Part shown: piece after piece, positions 1,813 to 18,200 of the stretch
Layout: every line of letters starts with the position of its first letter
How positions within the stretch are numbered: position 1 is the first letter of the stretch
DNA from: a virus
Strand: one strand, 5' to 3'
IMG/VR virus record: IMGVR_UViG_3300008108_000147
Location: 1 to 38,508 of that record
DNA length: 38,508 nucleotides
Made by a program: the position numbers and the translations under genes
Notes under the pieces: generated by a model
What the model was told of the DNA's origin: nothing
What the model saw: only the letters and a program-made list of their open reading frames with translations
Databases searched by the model: none

Positions 1813-2683
1813 GGGCGGCGGGACATCGACGCAGACGCAATCCAGCCAACTTGACCCCGATGTCAAGGAACGGATGCTGGCGAATTATGACTTCGCCCTG
1901 GACGTTGCTAATCGTGATTATCAGATTTACCCCTATCAGCGGATAGCGGGCTTCACGCCGTTGCAAGAAGCGTCCTTCCAGCGGGTGGGTGAAGTGGCGG
2001 GTTCTGCCCAGCAGCCGATTACTCAGGCCCAGGCTTTAGCCCGCCAGGCTGGCGCCTATACGCCGGGCACCATTGCTTCAGGGATGGCGGCTTACCAGAA
2101 CCCGTACACGCAACAGGTGATTGATACTACGCTGGCGGATATTGATCGTTCACGCCAGATGGCAAACCAGCAAACCGCCGCGCAGGCAGTGAGGGCGCGG
2201 GCGTTTGGCGGTTCACGCCAGGGTGTGGCGGAAGCCGAGACTAACCGGGCGGCGATGGAGCAAGCGGCCCGCACTGCCGCGCAATTGCGTTCCCAGGGCT
2301 TCCAGCAGGCGGGCGAAATGGCTGGCCGTGACATTGGTTACGGGTTGCAGGGGAACCAGCAGGCCCTTGCCGCTGCCCAGCAGCTTGGCGCCCTTGGCGC
2401 CCTTGGTCAGACGGCTGGGCTTACCGGCGCGCAGGCTATGTTCCAATCTGGCGAACAGCAGCGCGGGTTGACCCAGGCGAATATGACGCAGGCTTATGAG
2501 GACTTCCTGCGCCAGTTCCAGTATCCGGTGGAGCAGTTGCGGATTCGCCAAAGTGCGCTTGGGATGGCTCCGATGGGGCAGACCACCACGACGGAAACCA
2601 CGCCTTCCTTCTTGCAGCAAGTTGGCACCATTGGTCAGGCTGCTGGCGGCTTGGCTAATGCCTTTAATCTCCTGTTCCGGTAA
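1805..2683 (+). CDS. Putative internal virion / DNA ejection protein A
   Basis: A 292-residue, Gln- and Ala-rich, largely helical protein. It carries the hallmark segments YQNPYTQQVIDTTLADIDR and ARAFGGSRQGVAEAE seen in ejection or internal core proteins of marine and environmental podoviruses, and it ends in a hydrophobic Gly/Ala helix (VGTIGQAAGGLANAFNLLF). Such proteins are packed in the head or portal and pass into the cell envelope with the DNA. It overlaps the preceding gene and lies directly before two larger virion proteins, the usual three-gene ejection set. The family call comes from motifs seen here; the role in ejection is inferred. Confidence 0.7.
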   Translation: MSKGGGTSTQTQSSQLDPDVKERMLANYDFALDVANRDYQIYPYQRIAGFTPLQEASFQRVGEVAGSAQQPITQAQALARQAGAYTPGTIASGMAAYQNPYTQQVIDTTLADIDRSRQMANQQTAAQAVRARAFGGSRQGVAEAETNRAAMEQAARTAAQLRSQGFQQAGEMAGRDIGYGLQGNQQALAAAQQLGALGALGQTAGLTGAQAMFQSGEQQRGLTQANMTQAYEDFLRQFQYPVEQLRIRQSALGMAPMGQTTTTETTPSFLQQVGTIGQAAGGLANAFNLLFR

Positions 2684-2694
2684 GGAGCCGCGCA

Positions 2695-4455
2695 ATGTCT
2701 GAATTTCTATCGCGTCTTTTTGGTGGCGGGGAACCGACAAGCGGGGGTGATCCGGTGCCGGATCAGAGTCCTTATGCTGATCTTTCCCCGGACCAAAGGC
2801 GCCTTTTAGGCATTGCCGCCATGCAGGACGCTTTTGCTGCCTTGGCTGGCCAGCGGGGCGGGGCGCTTCAGAGCGTGATGCCCGTCACCAATATGTTGCA
2901 ACAGCAGCAAAACCAGCGGCGCTATCAAGAGGCTGTAAGTCGGTTTGCTTCTGGCGGTGAGCCGACAAGCACGGCAGCGGCAGCAGCCGCCGCAGGGGCA
3001 GCGGCTCCGTCTGCTGCGCCGGTACGGGCGCCTGCATCTGCTGACGAAACCAATGGACCGTTTAGCCGTGCTGCGATTGGTCGCGCGCTGGATGTTCTTG
3101 GCCGAGCCGAAGCCCGTGGTCCTGGTGTCGTCAATTCTCAGGGCTATGCGGGGCAATATCAGATTGGTGCGCCTTTGGCTGCTGATGCTGGTGTCTATCG
3201 TCCTGCGCCTGGCGAAATCAGTCGCCGGGGTGAATGGAACGGGCAATGGGGTGGCACTTTCAACATCCCCGGTTTTGAGAATGTCCGTACATTGCGTGAC
3301 TTCTTGGAAAACCCAGACGCCCAGCGTCGTGCTGCTGAATTGGCGATGCAAGTTCAGGCTGGCCGCATGACTTCTATGGGGCTTCCGGGTGCAATTGGGC
3401 GTAATGTTGGTGGTAACGAAGTGACGCCAGAGGCTCTTTTGCAGGGCGCTTGGCTCGGCGGTCCTGGCGGGGTTCAGGCGCTTGTTGAGCGTGGCGAAGA
3501 TAGGCGCGATGTTCTGGGAACGCCTGTTAGCCGCTGGATGGGCTTGCGGGGTGCCCAGGCACAAGCGCAACCAACCAGTGCCCAAGCGGCTCCCACTCAG
3601 GCGCAGCCAGCCCCAGCCGGGCAACCTACTTCTGGTGCGCCGTCACTCCGTCCGATTTCTGCTGAAGAACGCCGTTTGTTGGCTTCGCTTCCGCCAGAGA
3701 TTGGCTGGCGTATTCTGGCTGAACGGGCGAACCCGACGCGGGTTGGTTTGCAGCCGGTGATGGTGGAAGAACCTGGCCCCAATGGCGAGCGTGTTGTGGT
3801 ACCGTACTTCCCGACACAAACGGGTGAATTGCGGCGCGGTCAACTTCCGCCGGGCGCGCGGGTTGCGGAGGGGATTCGTACGGTTGATATGGGGACAGGA
3901 ACAGGTATTCTTGGTGGGCGTACTGGCACCCCAATGGGGGTGGTTCCACGTGATACCGCAGGACGGGAACGTGAAGAACGAGTGGGCCAAGCCCAAGGGA
4001 TTGATATTGCAAAAGCCCCTGAAATTATATCAACTTCAAATAGAAGTATTTCCCAAATTAATGAGGTTCTAAATCATCCAGCATTTAGTACGGCATCTGG
4101 TGTTTTGTCGCCGCTGCAAAATATTCCCGGTACATCAGCTTATGATTTCGGGCGACGTTTGGAACAATTGCAGGGCGTAGCATTTTTACAAGCGTTTGAT
4201 TCTCTTAGAGGAGCGGGCGCGGTTAGTAACCGTGAAGGTGAAATTGCCCAAGCTGCGATTGCCAGAATCAAGGCTGGTCTTTCTCCGTCAGATTTACGCA
4301 AAGCGCTTGATGAATTACGGATGATTGCTGAAGCTGCTAAAGAAAAAGGACTTGCAGCAGCCCAAGGCAGGCCAGCACCAGCTTTGCAAGAACCAAGCCC
4401 GCAATCACAACAACCACGCCTTCGCTACAATCCCGCAACCCAAAGGGTTGAATAA
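2695..4455 (+). CDS. Virion protein with transglycosylase-like motif (ejection protein B)
   Basis: A 586-residue protein. Residues 1-95 are a structural head, 96-118 an Ala/Pro linker, and about 130-290 hold a segment with Glu139 in GRAEARGP followed by YAGQYQIG (151-158). That recalls the catalytic Glu and G-x-YQ pattern of lysozyme or transglycosylase folds. After another Ala/Gln/Pro linker (300-320), a C-terminal domain (about 435-545) has DSLRGAGAVSNREGE, a pattern common in phage virion proteins. The expected role is local wall digestion during DNA entry, as for T7 gp16. Base composition becomes clearly AT-richer from about 3990, suggesting that the C-terminal domain was exchanged. Enzymatic activity is an inference. 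Confidence 0.65.
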   Translation: MSEFLSRLFGGGEPTSGGDPVPDQSPYADLSPDQRRLLGIAAMQDAFAALAGQRGGALQSVMPVTNMLQQQQNQRRYQEAVSRFASGGEPTSTAAAAAAAGAAAPSAAPVRAPASADETNGPFSRAAIGRALDVLGRAEARGPGVVNSQGYAGQYQIGAPLAADAGVYRPAPGEISRRGEWNGQWGGTFNIPGFENVRTLRDFLENPDAQRRAAELAMQVQAGRMTSMGLPGAIGRNVGGNEVTPEALLQGAWLGGPGGVQALVERGEDRRDVLGTPVSRWMGLRGAQAQAQPTSAQAAPTQAQPAPAGQPTSGAPSLRPISAEERRLLASLPPEIGWRILAERANPTRVGLQPVMVEEPGPNGERVVVPYFPTQTGELRRGQLPPGARVAEGIRTVDMGTGTGILGGRTGTPMGVVPRDTAGREREERVGQAQGIDIAKAPEIISTSNRSISQINEVLNHPAFSTASGVLSPLQNIPGTSAYDFGRRLEQLQGVAFLQAFDSLRGAGAVSNREGEIAQAAIARIKAGLSPSDLRKALDELRMIAEAAKEKGLAAAQGRPAPALQEPSPQSQQPRLRYNPATQRVE

Positions 4456-11614: not shown

Positions 11615-12013
11615 GTGAGAACCTGTATCACCATCCCCATCGAACCCGTCGCCAAGGGTCGCCCCCGATTCGGGAAGCACGGCGCCTATACGCCAGCCAA
11701 GACCCGGCAGGCAGAGGAAACAATTCGGGCATTTATTTCACCTTTCGATTCCTTTGGCTCCGTGCCGATCTGTGTTGATTTGATGGTGCTAATGCCAATC
11801 CCCAAATCCTGGCCAAAGAAAAAGCAGGAAGCGGCGCTTGCGGGCGACATCGAACACACAGGCAAACCCGATCTGGACAACCTGGCGAAGTTGGTCCTGG
11901 ATGCCGCCAACGGCATCCTTTGGGACGACGATAGCCAGATCATCAAGCTACACCTTTCCAAGATGTACAGCGGGAAACCGGGCTACATCCTAATCATCGA
12001 GGCAAACCCGTGA
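11615..12013 (+). CDS. rusA: RusA-like Holliday junction resolvase
   Basis: A 132-residue protein starting with GTG 11615. It shows the family pattern PVAKGRPR near the start, PIPKSWPKKK (61-70), the acidic signature KPDLDNLAKLVLDAANG (84-100) and WDDDSQI (103-109). The acidic residues of the PDxDN and DDD motifs are the expected metal ligands. It cleaves four-way DNA junctions, helping to resolve replication or recombination intermediates before packaging. It overlaps the next gene by GTGA and belongs to the rightward replication operon. Length is normal for RusA. Confidence 0.93.
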   Translation: MRTCITIPIEPVAKGRPRFGKHGAYTPAKTRQAEETIRAFISPFDSFGSVPICVDLMVLMPIPKSWPKKKQEAALAGDIEHTGKPDLDNLAKLVLDAANGILWDDDSQIIKLHLSKMYSGKPGYILIIEANP

Positions 12014-12774
12014 CCGATCCTTTTGCGACACATGGCATTGGCCATTTATCCGCCAGCAGCCTGAATACCTACGCGGCGCAGCCCGCCGCCTGGGCCATGT
12101 CCTACCTGTTGAAGCGGCGCCTGCCGGTGGGGGCTGCTGCCCATCGCGGTTCCGCCATCGAAGCAGGCGTGTCGGCTGGCCTATTCAATCCCGAAAAGCC
12201 GGTGGATGATTGCATCGCTATCGCCCTGGCTGAATATGACCGGTTAACAGCACTCTCAAGTGATCCCCGGCGGGAAGCCCAGCGTAAAGTGGTACAAGAC
12301 ACTGTTCCGGTGGCACTGGCAGAACTTCGTCAATATGGCGTCCCGACAGCGCCAGAAGAGGGCCAGCATCAGCACAAGATCAGCAAGGCGCTGGGCGAGG
12401 GCCTGCCCGATCTGGTGGGGTATCTGGATTTTTACTGGCAGGAACACGGGCTGGTGCTGGACCTAAAGACCACGGAACGGGTGCCGGGGCAGATTTCCAG
12501 CAGCCATGCGCGCCAGGGCGCTGGGTATGTGGTGAACACCAACCAGATGTGCCGATTCGCGTATTGCAGCCCGAAGAAGGTGGCGGTGTATCAGCTTGAA
12601 GGGGTTGCCGATCATTGGGCGCACCTACAAGCTATTGCTAACCGGCTGCGCCGGTTCCTGGCGATCTCGGCGGATAAGAATGAATTGATCAGTTTGCTGG
12701 TGCCGGATGTAGATAGTTTCTACTGGTCCGATCCAGCAGCAGAAGCAGCCCGTAAGGAAATCTACGGGATGTAA
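12010..12774 (+). CDS. PD-(D/E)XK nuclease (RecB/Cas4-like)
   Basis: A 254-residue protein with a GTG start in the rusA stop. The fold markers are LSASSLNTYAAQP near the N-terminus, HRGSAIEAG (45-53), GYLDFYW (137-143), VLDLKTTERVP (149-159) and SHARQGAGY. GYLD plus DLK-T is the metal-binding and catalytic core of RecB-type nucleases. Such phage enzymes usually act as DNA-end exonucleases in recombination with an SSB or annealing partner. The following gene looks SSB-like, which supports that. No cysteine cluster of the Cas4 iron-sulfur type was seen. Confidence 0.85.
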   Translation: MTDPFATHGIGHLSASSLNTYAAQPAAWAMSYLLKRRLPVGAAAHRGSAIEAGVSAGLFNPEKPVDDCIAIALAEYDRLTALSSDPRREAQRKVVQDTVPVALAELRQYGVPTAPEEGQHQHKISKALGEGLPDLVGYLDFYWQEHGLVLDLKTTERVPGQISSSHARQGAGYVVNTNQMCRFAYCSPKKVAVYQLEGVADHWAHLQAIANRLRRFLAISADKNELISLLVPDVDSFYWSDPAAEAARKEIYGM

Positions 12775-14613: not shown

Positions 14614-14712
14614 ATGTCAATGACAAAAAATCATAGACGAAAAATAAATTGCATCCCACTCAAAGACCCAGAGTACCCGCCACACACGGAATATCCGGGG
14701 AAGAAGCCATGA
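14614..14712 (+). CDS. Small ORF coupled to the primase-helicase gene
   Basis: A 32-residue frame from ATG 14614, preceded by AGGAG at 9-base spacing. Its stop overlaps the next ATG (ATGA at 14709). It has a basic N-terminus (MTKNHRRKINC) and a Pro/Tyr-rich end (DPEYPPHTEYP). The ribosome binding site and coupling favour translation; it may mainly serve to couple ribosomes into the downstream gene. No homologue recalled. Confidence 0.45.
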   Translation: MSMTKNHRRKINCIPLKDPEYPPHTEYPGKKP

Positions 14713-16763
14713 GCCTGACCGCACCAAGCCTATCAGCGCCCGCCAAAGAATGGGCGCTATATTACCTACGGCGCGGGTGGTCCGTGGTGCCCGTACGGCG
14801 GGGCGAAAAAATCCCCGCCATTCCCTGGCACCAATTCCAAAACAGACGCGCCACCGAAGCCGAGATTCAGGATTGGTTTGCCGATCCCACCATGGGGGTC
14901 GGGATCGTTACCGGCGCCATCAGTAACCTCACTGTGGCGGATTTCGATGGCGACATTGGCGCCGCCACAGAACAGGACATCTTGCCCCGACTCGGGGCTG
15001 GCCCGGTGGCACTGACCGGGGGTGGCGGGTGCCACAGGTTCTTTTCCCATCCTGGGAAGAAGGTTCCCACCAGAAAAGGTATCCTGCCGGGCATGGATAT
15101 CCGGGGCGATGGTGGCTTTATTGTCGCGCCGCCTTCGGTCCACGCCAGCGGGCGCCAGTACTCCTGGGACGTTGATGCCCATGTGGATGATCTGGGGCTA
15201 CCTAGCCTGACCGAATCGATGGTGGAACTGATCTGCCAGGATGTGATCCATGGCACGGGTTCTGTAAGCCCTGTAACCCATGCAACAGGGCCGCTGGGCT
15301 TGCCGGGCCAGATTACCGATGGCCGCGAGCAATACATGCGGAACACCATTCTGGCGGTAGTCTCAGACCTATACCGACAGTTAGGGCGCATCCCCACCGA
15401 AGAAGAGGTGGTGGCGGAAGGCTGGCCACAGTACGCCAGCAAAGTGGATTTCAGCAGACCTGGCCGGGGCGAAGCCGAGTTCCGCATGAAGGTGAGATAT
15501 ACGCTGGACCGGGCTAACAGGGGTATCATCAAGCTGGAAGCACCGAAGCCCCAGGCACCCGCCACACAGGCGCCCAGCGCCACCACAGAGGGCCAGAAAG
15601 CCCTCTGGCATGACCAGGGCGCCTTTGCAGGGGGAGAGATACCCAAGCGGCCCTGGCTGGTGCAAGGCTACCTACTGCGCGGGGCGGTCACAGTTCTCAG
15701 TGGACAGGGTGCCGGGGGCAAATCGTCCATGGTGGTTGGCTGGACACTAGCCGGGGCGCAAGGCAAACCCTTCGGCGCCTTCAGGCCAGAAACACCACTT
15801 ACCATCATTAACTACAACGTCGAGGACGACAAAGACGAACAGCGCCGCCGGTACGCCGCCGCCATCAAAGCCCAAGCCGCTGACGGGGGCGCCATGCAGC
15901 GGATCATCCGGTGCGGTCCATACAATGTGGGGACACTGTTCGCCCGTGATCCACATACCGGGCAAATCAATCCCACCCAGGCTATGCAGGAACTTGAACG
16001 CATCTGTATGGAAGAGCAGGCCGATCTGCTGGTGTGCGATCCGCTAGCCGAACTCCACGACAGCGAAGAAAACGACAATACCGCCATGCGCCAAGTGGTC
16101 GCGGCTTTCCGGTCACTGGCGCAACGGCTAGATATGGCGGTACTGATCCTGCACCATGACCGCAAAGGCACCAGTACGCCCGGCGACATGGACCGGGTGC
16201 GCGGGGCTTCCTCAATCAGCGGGGCAGTCCGGGTCATGCTGACACTAACCACCATGACCGCCGAAGAAGCAGGCACCTTCGGTATCCAGGCAGAAGAACG
16301 CCGGTCCTACCTACGGATAGACAGCGCCAAATCCAATTACGCGCCAGCCCAGGAAGCCGAATGGTACAAGCTGACCGCCATTGAGATTGAGAACGGTGAG
16401 ATCGTCGCCGCCGCCCTTCCCTGGACGCCGCCAGGCGTCTTCGGGGCACTCAGTATGGCAGACTGCGTGGGTATCCTGGAAACCCTTCAGCGGGGCTTCA
16501 TGGAGGAAGGCAAGCGGTACGCCTTCGCAGCAGACCCAAAAGCCAAGAAAGGGGTGGCGTGGGAAGTACTAACGAACACCGGCAAAGCCACCAAAGAGCA
16601 GGCCAAGAACATCCTAAAGACCTGGGAAGACGAAGGAACCATAGTCAAAGAACTAGGCCCTTCACCATCAAGCAGGCATCCGAGGGACAACTATAGCGTG
16701 TGTCATGAGCGGCTAGCGCAGATGAAATTAGCTGCACCAAAACCCATTATTGAGGAGTTTTGA
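14709..16763 (+). CDS. Prim-pol / RepA-type helicase fusion (replication initiator)
   Basis: A 684-residue protein from ATG 14709, after GGGGAAGAAG. Residues 10-175 form a bifunctional primase-polymerase domain: VADFDGD (76-82) with metal-binding acids, GGGGCHRFF (104-112), GMDIRGDGGFIVAPP (128-142). Residues 315-560 form a RecA-like ATPase of the RepA/DnaB group: Walker A SGQGAGGKSS (331-340), Walker B ADLLVCDPLAEL (438-449), and LHHDRKG (481-487). A winged-helix-like tail follows. It would prime and unwind at the phage origin. A block of repeats directly downstream is the obvious candidate site. Confidence 0.9.
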   Translation: MSLTAPSLSAPAKEWALYYLRRGWSVVPVRRGEKIPAIPWHQFQNRRATEAEIQDWFADPTMGVGIVTGAISNLTVADFDGDIGAATEQDILPRLGAGPVALTGGGGCHRFFSHPGKKVPTRKGILPGMDIRGDGGFIVAPPSVHASGRQYSWDVDAHVDDLGLPSLTESMVELICQDVIHGTGSVSPVTHATGPLGLPGQITDGREQYMRNTILAVVSDLYRQLGRIPTEEEVVAEGWPQYASKVDFSRPGRGEAEFRMKVRYTLDRANRGIIKLEAPKPQAPATQAPSATTEGQKALWHDQGAFAGGEIPKRPWLVQGYLLRGAVTVLSGQGAGGKSSMVVGWTLAGAQGKPFGAFRPETPLTIINYNVEDDKDEQRRRYAAAIKAQAADGGAMQRIIRCGPYNVGTLFARDPHTGQINPTQAMQELERICMEEQADLLVCDPLAELHDSEENDNTAMRQVVAAFRSLAQRLDMAVLILHHDRKGTSTPGDMDRVRGASSISGAVRVMLTLTTMTAEEAGTFGIQAEERRSYLRIDSAKSNYAPAQEAEWYKLTAIEIENGEIVAAALPWTPPGVFGALSMADCVGILETLQRGFMEEGKRYAFAADPKAKKGVAWEVLTNTGKATKEQAKNILKTWEDEGTIVKELGPSPSSRHPRDNYSVCHERLAQMKLAAPKPIIEEF

Positions 16764-16770
16764 GGGTGTG

Positions 16771-16932
16771 CAACTTGGTGTTGGAAAACACCATTTTGCT
16801 GCACAAGTTGGACACATTTTTTGTGTGCAGCAACAAAAAGTCCCTAGGCAGGGGATTATCTGCACGCGCAGTTGCTTAAGCACAGCAACTGCACGCGCAG
16901 AGTAAGATAATCCACTGCTGACCTAGGGACTT
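16771..16932. other. Repeat-rich structured element, origin candidate
   Basis: About 160 noncoding bases between the helicase and the next gene, packed with paired sequence. Hairpin 1: GGTGTT/AACACC with GGAA loop (16777-16792). Hairpin 2: TTGCTGCACA (16796-16805) with TGTGCAGCAA (16824-16833). Large element: AAGTCCCTAGG (16838-16848) with CCTAGGGACTT (16922-16932), GGATTATC (16853-16860) with GATAATCC (16906-16913), and GCAGTTGCT (16868-16876) with AGCAACTGC (16884-16892). Two identical direct repeats CTGCACGCGCAG lie at 16860-16871 and 16889-16900. Iterons plus palindromes beside a prim-pol/helicase suggest a replication origin; a structured RNA or attenuator is the alternative. Confidence 0.6.
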
Positions 16933-16969
16933 GCCGCTTGTAGCACCACAACTAGTAGGGGAAGAAGTA

Positions 16970-17515
16970 ATGGCGAATGAAGAGGTATTAGCCCCGCTGA
17001 CTGAAGCGAATGGCGAATGGGTATGGCGATCTCGGATGGCGGGTGCGCTGGATACGCTGGTGGCGGGGCTGGAAAGAGAATGGGGGTTCGATAGGCTTCC
17101 GTTGCTGGTGTCCACGGCGACTAGGGAGCGGTTCCAGGCGGCAGAGGATATGCACCGGCAAGCGACAGTGGCGGGAGAGGATATGGCGGAACTGGACGCC
17201 ATGATGATGCGGGCCTGGAAAGCATTGGCCGCTGAAGCACTGGCGGCTGGGTATGAACCGCTTCCGGGGCCGCTGATGACCGTGCAGGCCGATGAGGCGG
17301 AACGGGGCACCATCTGCATCTGTCAGGATGACACCCATGCACAGGCGGTCCTGGCGCGGGCTAAGGCCGAAGGGTGGAACGCGGAAGCCTGGACGGTGGA
17401 AGAGGTGGGTAGGGTTCTGAAAGGAGCTTCGCCTATCGCAGAGATCAAGGCTGCATTTCCGAAGGCGAAGGTGGTAAGACGGGGGCAATTGATCGCGGAC
17501 GAAATCCCGATCTAA
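16970..17515 (+). CDS. Hypothetical protein after the repeat element
   Basis: A 181-residue acidic protein from ATG 16970, preceded by AGGGGAAGAAG. The N-terminal half is helical and Trp-containing (GEWVWRSRMAGALDTLVAGL, TRERFQAAEDMHRQ). The C-terminal half looks alpha/beta: TICICQDDTHAQAVLARAKA, WTVEEVGRVLKG, ending KVVRRGQLIADEIPI. The second half could hold a nucleotide-binding or nuclease-like fold, but I see no diagnostic motif. It is in the replication operon. Confidence 0.62.
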   Translation: MANEEVLAPLTEANGEWVWRSRMAGALDTLVAGLEREWGFDRLPLLVSTATRERFQAAEDMHRQATVAGEDMAELDAMMMRAWKALAAEALAAGYEPLPGPLMTVQADEAERGTICICQDDTHAQAVLARAKAEGWNAEAWTVEEVGRVLKGASPIAEIKAAFPKAKVVRRGQLIADEIPI

Positions 17516-17523
17516 GATTGACC

Positions 17524-17904
17524 ATGAGCCGGAACTTCGAGGCAGAACGCATAGACTTCGGGCCGGATATTCAGGAAGGCGATATAACGGTGTCTGAGCG
17601 GTTCTGGGCGCCCGACGCTATGTTGGCGAGGGGCATGATTAGTGAGGCGCTGTATGCCGCTGCAAAGCGGTTTAGGGACGATTACTACGCCGGGCAGGCT
17701 GGGAGGCTTGGGGCGCGTGAGGCGTTTACACGGGCTTCTAGGGCGGTTGGTAACACTGCTATGCCTGCGCTGGCTTGGACGGTTCTCAGTCACGGCACGG
17801 TGACGGGCTGGGCTGAGTGTAAGGGGATTGAGGTGGTAAAGGCGGCTGGCCAAGTGGTGCAGGCGCTGGAACGGTTGAACCGATTTTATGGAGCGAAAGT
17901 GTGA
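17524..17904 (+). CDS. Conserved early protein with duplicated tail
   Basis: A 126-residue protein from ATG 17524. N-terminal part: FEAERIDFGPDIQEGD, then a Tyr-rich helical middle (RFRDDYYAGQAGRLGAREAF). The C-terminal half (LAWTVLSHGTVTGWAECKGI, then EVVKAAGQVVQALERL) occurs again, out of context, at 18226-18351. Its stop overlaps the GTG of the ParB-like gene (GTGA). Resembles phage proteins near replication genes but no function is known. Confidence 0.65.
   Translation: MSRNFEAERIDFGPDIQEGDITVSERFWAPDAMLARGMISEALYAAAKRFRDDYYAGQAGRLGAREAFTRASRAVGNTAMPALAWTVLSHGTVTGWAECKGIEVVKAAGQVVQALERLNRFYGAKV
17766..17891 (+). repeat. Duplicated segment, copy 1
   Basis: 126 bases that align without gaps to 18226-18351 (offset 460), about 85% identical by eye. 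The first 75 bases have only a handful of changes. This copy is the natural 3' part of the gene at 17524-17904. Confidence 0.85.
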
Positions 17905-18200
17905 AAAAATTTTGGCCGGCTGAAAAAATTGAAATGCGGCAGTTGGATAAGTTGATCCCTTACGCCCGCAATTCCAGGACCCATTCGGATACCCAGGTGG
18001 CGCAAATAGCGGCATCCATAAAAGAATGGGGGTGGACCACTCCAATTCTGGTGGATGAGGAAGGCACGATCATTGCGGGGCATGGGCGCACCTTGGCCGC
18101 TAGGAAATTGGGGCTGGCTGAAGTACCTGTGATGGTGGCAAGGGGATGGAGCGAAGCCCGGAAGAAGGCTTATGTCATAGCCGACAATCTTTGGCCATGA
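17901..18200 (+). pseudogene. ParB-like nuclease domain protein, frameshifted and truncated
   Basis: The 99 codons from GTG 17901 cover a whole ParB/Srx-type domain: LIPYARNSRTHSDTQVAQIA, SIKEWGWTTPILVDEEG, TIIAGHGRTLAARKLGL, AEVPVMVARGWSEARKKAYV and IADN. In family members the text continues into a helical segment (like KLAxNAGWDxELLAL) and often a DNA methyltransferase. Here the frame ends NLWP-stop, while the expected continuation AMNAGWDTELLAL is present in another frame, so about one base was lost near 18187-18192. Whether the short domain alone still binds DNA is unknown. Confidence 0.75.

Follow-up and report, generated by a model that had tools for sequence, protein, structure and literature searches.

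In SaPI, the iteron origin lies just downstream of rep and is read by the C-terminus of Rep, and some SaPI Reps combine a primase with a helicase (as summarised in PMC7581432). The pRN1 protein ORF904 consists of a prim-pol, an SF3 helicase, and a wHTH, and a stem-loop of ~100 nt located 3' of rep is required for replication, its structure being kept while its sequence diverges; pRN1 was reported without iterons, and a pRN1-like stem-loop has also been proposed for Bordetella phage BIP-1 (PMC4234260). RSF1010 (IncQ) relies on separate parts, namely the RepA helicase, the RepB' primase, RepC, the oriV iterons, and the ssiA/ssiB hairpins (as summarised in PMC4234260). In the PLE replicon of Vibrio cholerae satellites, the DNA-binding domain of the initiator and the iteron origin co-vary and are swapped as a module, the selective pressure being an origin-directed nuclease (PMC8263062). 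The locus compared with these systems here lies in a 38,508-bp virus record, the whole of which is referred to as the window.

The replication initiator gene of the window (rep, 14649-16763, + strand), recognised by its Pfam and PDB matches and predicted fold, encodes a product of 704 residues (Rep) in which a Prim-Pol domain (aa 36-176, PF09250, E 9e-31), an AAA_25 helicase domain (aa 327-508, PF13481, E 8e-34), and a winged helix (wH) are joined in one reading frame. The sole PDB match of Rep was RSF1010 RepA (1g8y/1nlf; phmmer E 2.7e-12, aa 456-574), and the helicase appears to be of the RSF1010 RepA type, with a predicted hexameric ring. The winged helix was predicted by AF2 for aa ~591-704 (pLDDT 82, H-H-H-E-E topology); its best structural matches (VIA-align) were largely winged-helix proteins (Z 6-7.7), including PadR, MarR, RTP, and RecQ RQC, and at Z < 8 they indicate the type of fold but no specific family. 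The C-terminus of the relative L028, which is unrelated to that of the window, is likewise predicted to be a winged helix. Based on the AF2 model, the fold comparison, and a drop in identity that accompanies iteron type (see below), the wH coding part (16419-16760, +) is proposed to specify an iteron-reading domain and to form the 5' part of an exchangeable cassette. Upstream of rep, a RusA Holliday-junction resolvase gene (11615-12013, +; PF05866, E 1.6e-29) is directly followed by a PD-(D/E)XK nuclease-like gene (12010-12774, +), the two forming a recombination module.

Between rep and the next gene lies a gap of 206 bases (16764-16969), which we annotate, with no strand assigned, as a putative intergenic replication origin on the basis of its repeats, its folding relative to shuffles, and the arrays of its relatives. 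An earlier note, made from the letters of this DNA alone, had described the region as noncoding, and noncoding it is, the next start being the ATG at 16970, which is preceded by a purine-rich RBS-like stretch. All of the inverted repeats that it had claimed at 16771-16932 are present at that place, including the outer 11-bp pair with a spacing of 73 nt: AAGTCCCTAGG (16838-16848) pairs perfectly with CCTAGGGACTT (16922-16932) and forms the outer stem of a bulged hairpin of 95 nt (16838-16932, no strand assigned). The two identical, near-palindromic 12-mers also exist (CTGCACGCGCAG at 16860-16871, + strand, and 16889-16900; 10/12 positions palindromic), but inverted-repeat analysis places them as arms of the inner stem of this hairpin, the first copy being the left arm, rather than as tandem iterons. 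Other inverted repeats span 16859-16901, 16848-16918, 16766-16815, 16770-16799, and 16796-16833. Overall, the gap holds the 95-nt hairpin and, to the left of it, two smaller inverted repeats.

Iteron-like sites were recognised at 16766-16777 (- strand; core AGTTGCAC at 16768-16775, matching a ACTAGCAC copy in the relative L011), at 16795-16804 (TTTGCTGCAC, +) and, weakly, at 16808-16815 (TTGGACAC, +), both aligned with ACTAGCAC in L011, and at 16824-16834 (GTTGCTGCACA, -; inverted-repeat and site analysis). Within the hairpin, such sites occupy 16871-16883 (GTTGCTTAAGCAC, +; inner stem/loop, site analysis) and 16887-16900 (AACTGCACGCGCAG, +; right arm of the inner stem, inverted-repeat and site analysis). 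The window has a degenerate word, approximately GTTGC(n)GCAC, which taken alone would be insufficient evidence for iterons: in a count of exact 6-mers in the window array, CTGCAC occurred four times, which is not above shuffles (maximum 5). The repeat density of the array was reached by only 0.26% of the 177-nt stretches of the window. Folding, a check that the earlier note had suggested, gave a clear signal for 16764-16970 as + RNA (-91.3 kcal/mol, z -6.2), as - RNA (-93.8 kcal/mol, z -8.4), and as DNA (-51.7 kcal/mol, z -6.8), and 0/200 shuffles were as stable. Another reading takes the palindromes for an intrinsic terminator or for functionless products of chance. One terminator-like site was called at 16776-16793 on the + strand, shuffles averaging 1.0 such site, whereas the z values of -6 to -8, an architecture kept in many diverged relatives, and T-tracts that are not kept in relatives make this explanation extremely improbable.

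Relatives were collected by a protein search of viral contigs (64 loci) and a profile search (63 loci, many on the same contigs). Most of them carry their own word of 7-10 bases directly 3' of rep in 4-10 direct and inverted copies, compared with at most 2-3 copies per word expected from shuffles. In 30/48 distinct loci, one 8-mer was present in at least four copies, and 200 shuffles per locus never gave more than three. The word differs by lineage, the forms observed being CGTAACAC, TGCAACA, CGCAACAC, ACTAGCAC, CCGACGCA, ATCGGGG, GCTCCAGTAA, GCGACAGTAA, AATCCGGC, GATTTGCA, GCATCAAA, GCATCGAA, AGAAGTGCGG, GTGGCGCA, AAGTGGCGC, AAACCCTGTG, ACCCACGC, GCGTCACTCC, CCCCGGAA, AACTGCGC, and ACTTGCAC. 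In the L054 record (41.7 kb), 9/9 copies of GCGACAGTAA fall inside 266 bp beside rep, i.e., at a single place. A DNA-level search of phage records gave a single match of 59 bp, which lay outside the region, and isolated phages were therefore reached by protein search. Two cultured phages have arrays of the same kind, consisting of CTGCTACAAC 0.3-0.6 kb behind repA in Rhodoferax phage P26218, where the iterons occupy 2660-3000 of locus L067, and of GACTGGCGCA in Microcystis phage Mae-Yong1326-1. No iterons were found 3' of the helicase gene in the isolated phages RHph_X2_26 and vB_Yen_X1, or 3' of rep in the remote relatives L061-L066, L109/L110, and L120. Scans of viral contigs with the window hairpin word and the CGTAACAC array yielded 15 and 11 stretches, respectively, and provided no sign of an origin lacking rep; when eight of the stretches were checked by tblastn, five kept the wH coding sequence and three began within ~60 bases of the match.

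Several individual relatives are also of note. One remote relative is a prophage in Rhodovarius crocodyli. In L106, the first ~200 bases behind rep contain two words, TGCGACCTAA and GGGCGCAA, with three copies each in one array, which is perhaps a composite origin. L014 and L050 are the two ends of one contig (IMGVR_UViG_3300032220_000304, 35301 bp); since these ends hold overlapping parts of one rep gene (aa 122-704 and, opposite, aa 1-161), the contig probably represents a complete genome that is circularly permuted or end-redundant.

Comparison of close relatives indicates that the copies of a word change in concert. Measured from the rep stop, the nine copies of L054 occupy the same positions as the nine of L049 (with a one-base shift in one case), and every copy reads GCGACAGTAA in L054 and GCTCCAGTAA in L049. 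Similarly, CGTAACA in L028 corresponds to TGCAACA in L031 across the arrays, and GTTGC..GCAC in the window corresponds to ACTAGCAC in L011 at matching places. One and the same word is thus found both in distinct hairpins and in direct copies that are unpaired, and all of its occurrences change together. Because base pairing alone requires only that each arm match its partner, the presence of an identical new word throughout points to a single protein as the probable reader of all copies.

The words change with the last ~110 residues of Rep, i.e., the predicted wH, whereas they do not follow the helicase or the genes downstream. Among pairs whose helicase cores are at least 85% identical, those sharing a word had a wH identity of at least 0.80 (n=95), while those with different words had at most 0.73 (n=85); these pairs are not independent, and among close relatives the word was counted as having changed separately at least three times (window/L011, L028/L031, and L049-L052/L051-L054). 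L051 has a core nearer to that of L052 (0.87) and a wH nearer to that of L054 (0.84), in agreement with the word of L051. Compared with the window Rep, that of L011 shows 93-100% identity along most of its length up to residue 560 and 90% up to residue 600, and identity then falls to 67% and 59% over the last 100 residues; the word of L011 is also different. L013, on the other hand, has a middle part of 77-88% and last 140 residues of 84-100% identity to the window Rep, together with a window-type array, and in L015-L017 an L013-like middle is joined to the C-terminus and the word of L011. The earlier note had proposed binding of the repeats by the N-terminal domain of the helicase, whereas these comparisons of sequences point to the C-terminal domain.

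The same exchange is visible in the DNA. Between L011 and L015, identity of 97-100% is confined to a stretch from ~-500 to +300 relative to the rep stop, the flanks being 68-92% identical over most of the compared region out to +800; past +300, identity is 78-92% to +800, followed by a second near-identical stretch. Between L013 and L015, a trough of 49-63% (-200 to +200) separates a part with 80-97% over most of -1500 to -400 from one with 98-100% identity. L028-L038 have a replaced helicase and C-terminus over their full length (roughly 7-25% identity) along with a replaced origin, but remain related in the prim-pol (mostly 72-99%) and in the downstream gene. The downstream gene of the window (16970-17515, +) is largely kept in relatives with a different origin, in which DNA identity amounts to 35-56% over 0 to +200 and then mostly to 77-98% over +200 to +700. 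It appears from these alignments that the winged helix and the repeats are exchanged as a cassette of ~0.8 kb.

These data also bear on a partition or centromere site (parS), which might be suspected since parS sites consist of short repeats and a gene for a 99-residue protein with a ParB_N domain (17901-18200, +; PF02195, E 3.4e-7) lies ~1 kb behind the candidate origin. However, the repeats track the winged helix of Rep rather than this gene, and in L029 the stretch at +1000 to +1300, where part of the ParB_N gene lies, matches the window at 92-97% identity, yet the repeats of L029 are wholly different. We therefore consider a parS site read by that protein to be highly implausible.

A structured RNA in the rep transcript (a leader, an attenuator, or a riboswitch-like element) that controls the downstream gene had been offered in the earlier note as the alternative to an origin, and part of that idea stands: the fold is strong on either strand, and the covariation looked for in relatives was found. 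In the hairpin of the window and L011 groups, two-sided changes affect 18/35 consensus pairs, among them outer-stem pairs that lie outside the iteron words; base pairing as such thus seems to have been preserved, as it is in the stem-loop of pRN1 (PMC4234260). On the other hand, with about 39 two-sided changes against only three one-sided ones (G-U) in rows that are few and related, there is little of the wobble expected of an RNA. Moreover, pairing does not require the joint change of a word shared by separate hairpins and unpaired direct copies, an Rfam 15 covariance-model search of the window gave 0 matches at the gathering score, and the terminator scan revealed no conserved terminator. 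A search for tRNA and tmRNA genes was negative. An RNA element is further disfavoured because the element follows the 3' end of the upstream gene, being replaced together with it, and not the downstream gene, which stays mostly 80-98% identical. We thus regard an RNA element as unlikely, and weaker than an origin.

A short palindromic core recurs independently of the iteron word, often followed by GGGAAA. CTATAG was present in 10/37 loci compared with 0.6 in shuffles, and CCTWWRGG in 12/37 loci compared with 0.8 in shuffles; the window form, identified by this recurrence, is the palindrome CCTAGG at 16843-16848 (no strand assigned). Our guess is that this core serves as a melting or priming point.

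Many initiators also autoregulate. The iterons could accordingly be operators through which the wH regulates rep, early genes, or copy number while replication starts elsewhere, and the same data that argue for binding at an origin would fit such a role. However, the array lies 3' of rep and not at the rep promoter, no sigma-70-like promoter was found in 16500-17300 (the promoter/terminator scan being uninformative overall), and an operator would need neither a large conserved hairpin nor a core independent of the iterons, so that a purely regulatory array seems quite unlikely. An operator role is compatible with an origin role, and the iterons could serve autoregulation besides, or instead of, initiation.

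In view of the lineage-specific iterons, their concerted change, their linkage to the wH, and the single site per genome, the repeat-rich stretch just behind rep is very probably the phage replication origin, and the origin proposed in the earlier note is thus well supported. A minimum of cumulative GC skew, which that note would have expected here, is absent from the site in the window, where only a break of slope (~17000) was seen; the slope also breaks near the candidate origin in G001 and G003, a minimum lies at the site in G002 only, and G004 has none at its candidate origin. Such changes are confounded by a gene-module boundary and were not counted as proof of an origin. The joint best explanation of the data, to which we assign a probability of about 0.85, is that 16764-16969 is an iteron and hairpin origin bound by the C-terminal wH of Rep, where opening and priming take place. 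We infer that Rep binding, melting, priming, and the start of replication occur here in infected cells, possibly as follows. Rep, the product of the gene just upstream, would bind the iterons via its C-terminal winged helix and thereby place the RepA-type ring helicase at the origin; the strands would open at or beside the CCTAGG/CTATAG core; the exposed arm of ~95 nt would fold; the N-terminal prim-pol would lay the first primers; and a phage or host polymerase would extend from them.

If so, the ~20 natural pairs of wH and DNA word among the relatives offer access to a recognition code of initiators, and a change of origin specificity becomes directly testable, especially as some pairs differ by few residues (L051/L052 and L049/L055). 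For uncultured phages of this type, a simple rule for locating the origin also follows, namely to inspect the region just behind rep. A further question is how a fused DNA-binding domain would load a ring helicase of the RepA type. A broader view, which we hold only tentatively and consider possible rather than probable, is that a widespread group of phages possesses a one-polypeptide initiation machine of the RSF1010 type, whose specificity resides in a detachable cassette of wH, iterons, and hairpin that is traded to escape origin-targeting competitors, satellites, or nucleases, with the CTATAG-type core as the common melting or priming point.

Compared with the described systems, the locus resembles SaPI in its array 3' of rep, in a word that appears coupled to the Rep C-terminus, and in a putative helicase initiator, but its helicase matches PF13481 and RSF1010 RepA and not the Rep/Cch2 (D5-type) family of SaPI, its origin adds a hairpin of ~95 nt and a CTATAG-type core, and it belongs to phage genomes rather than satellites. 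With pRN1 it shares an N-terminal AEP prim-pol (PF09250, E 9e-31) joined to a helicase, a predicted C-terminal winged helix, and a stem-loop of ~100 nt 3' of rep; however, the helicase is of the AAA_25/RSF1010 RepA type and not SF3, and most relatives of the window have clear iterons. The likeness to RSF1010 comprises a RepA-type helicase (by sequence match), a specialised primase, iterons, and a hairpin, whereas three separate proteins there correspond to one polypeptide here, with a wH in place of RepC, and an ssi-like use of the window hairpin is putative. As in PLE, a DNA-binding domain and an origin are exchanged together, but the PLE domain is a RepA_N domain at the N-terminus with no prim-pol/helicase fusion, and an origin-directed nuclease is the pressure identified for PLE. 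A literature search of incomplete coverage found no description of such an arrangement for a RepA-type helicase. The window system fits none of SaPI, pRN1, RSF1010, and PLE by all defining features; it joins features of all four in one polypeptide with an adjacent origin.
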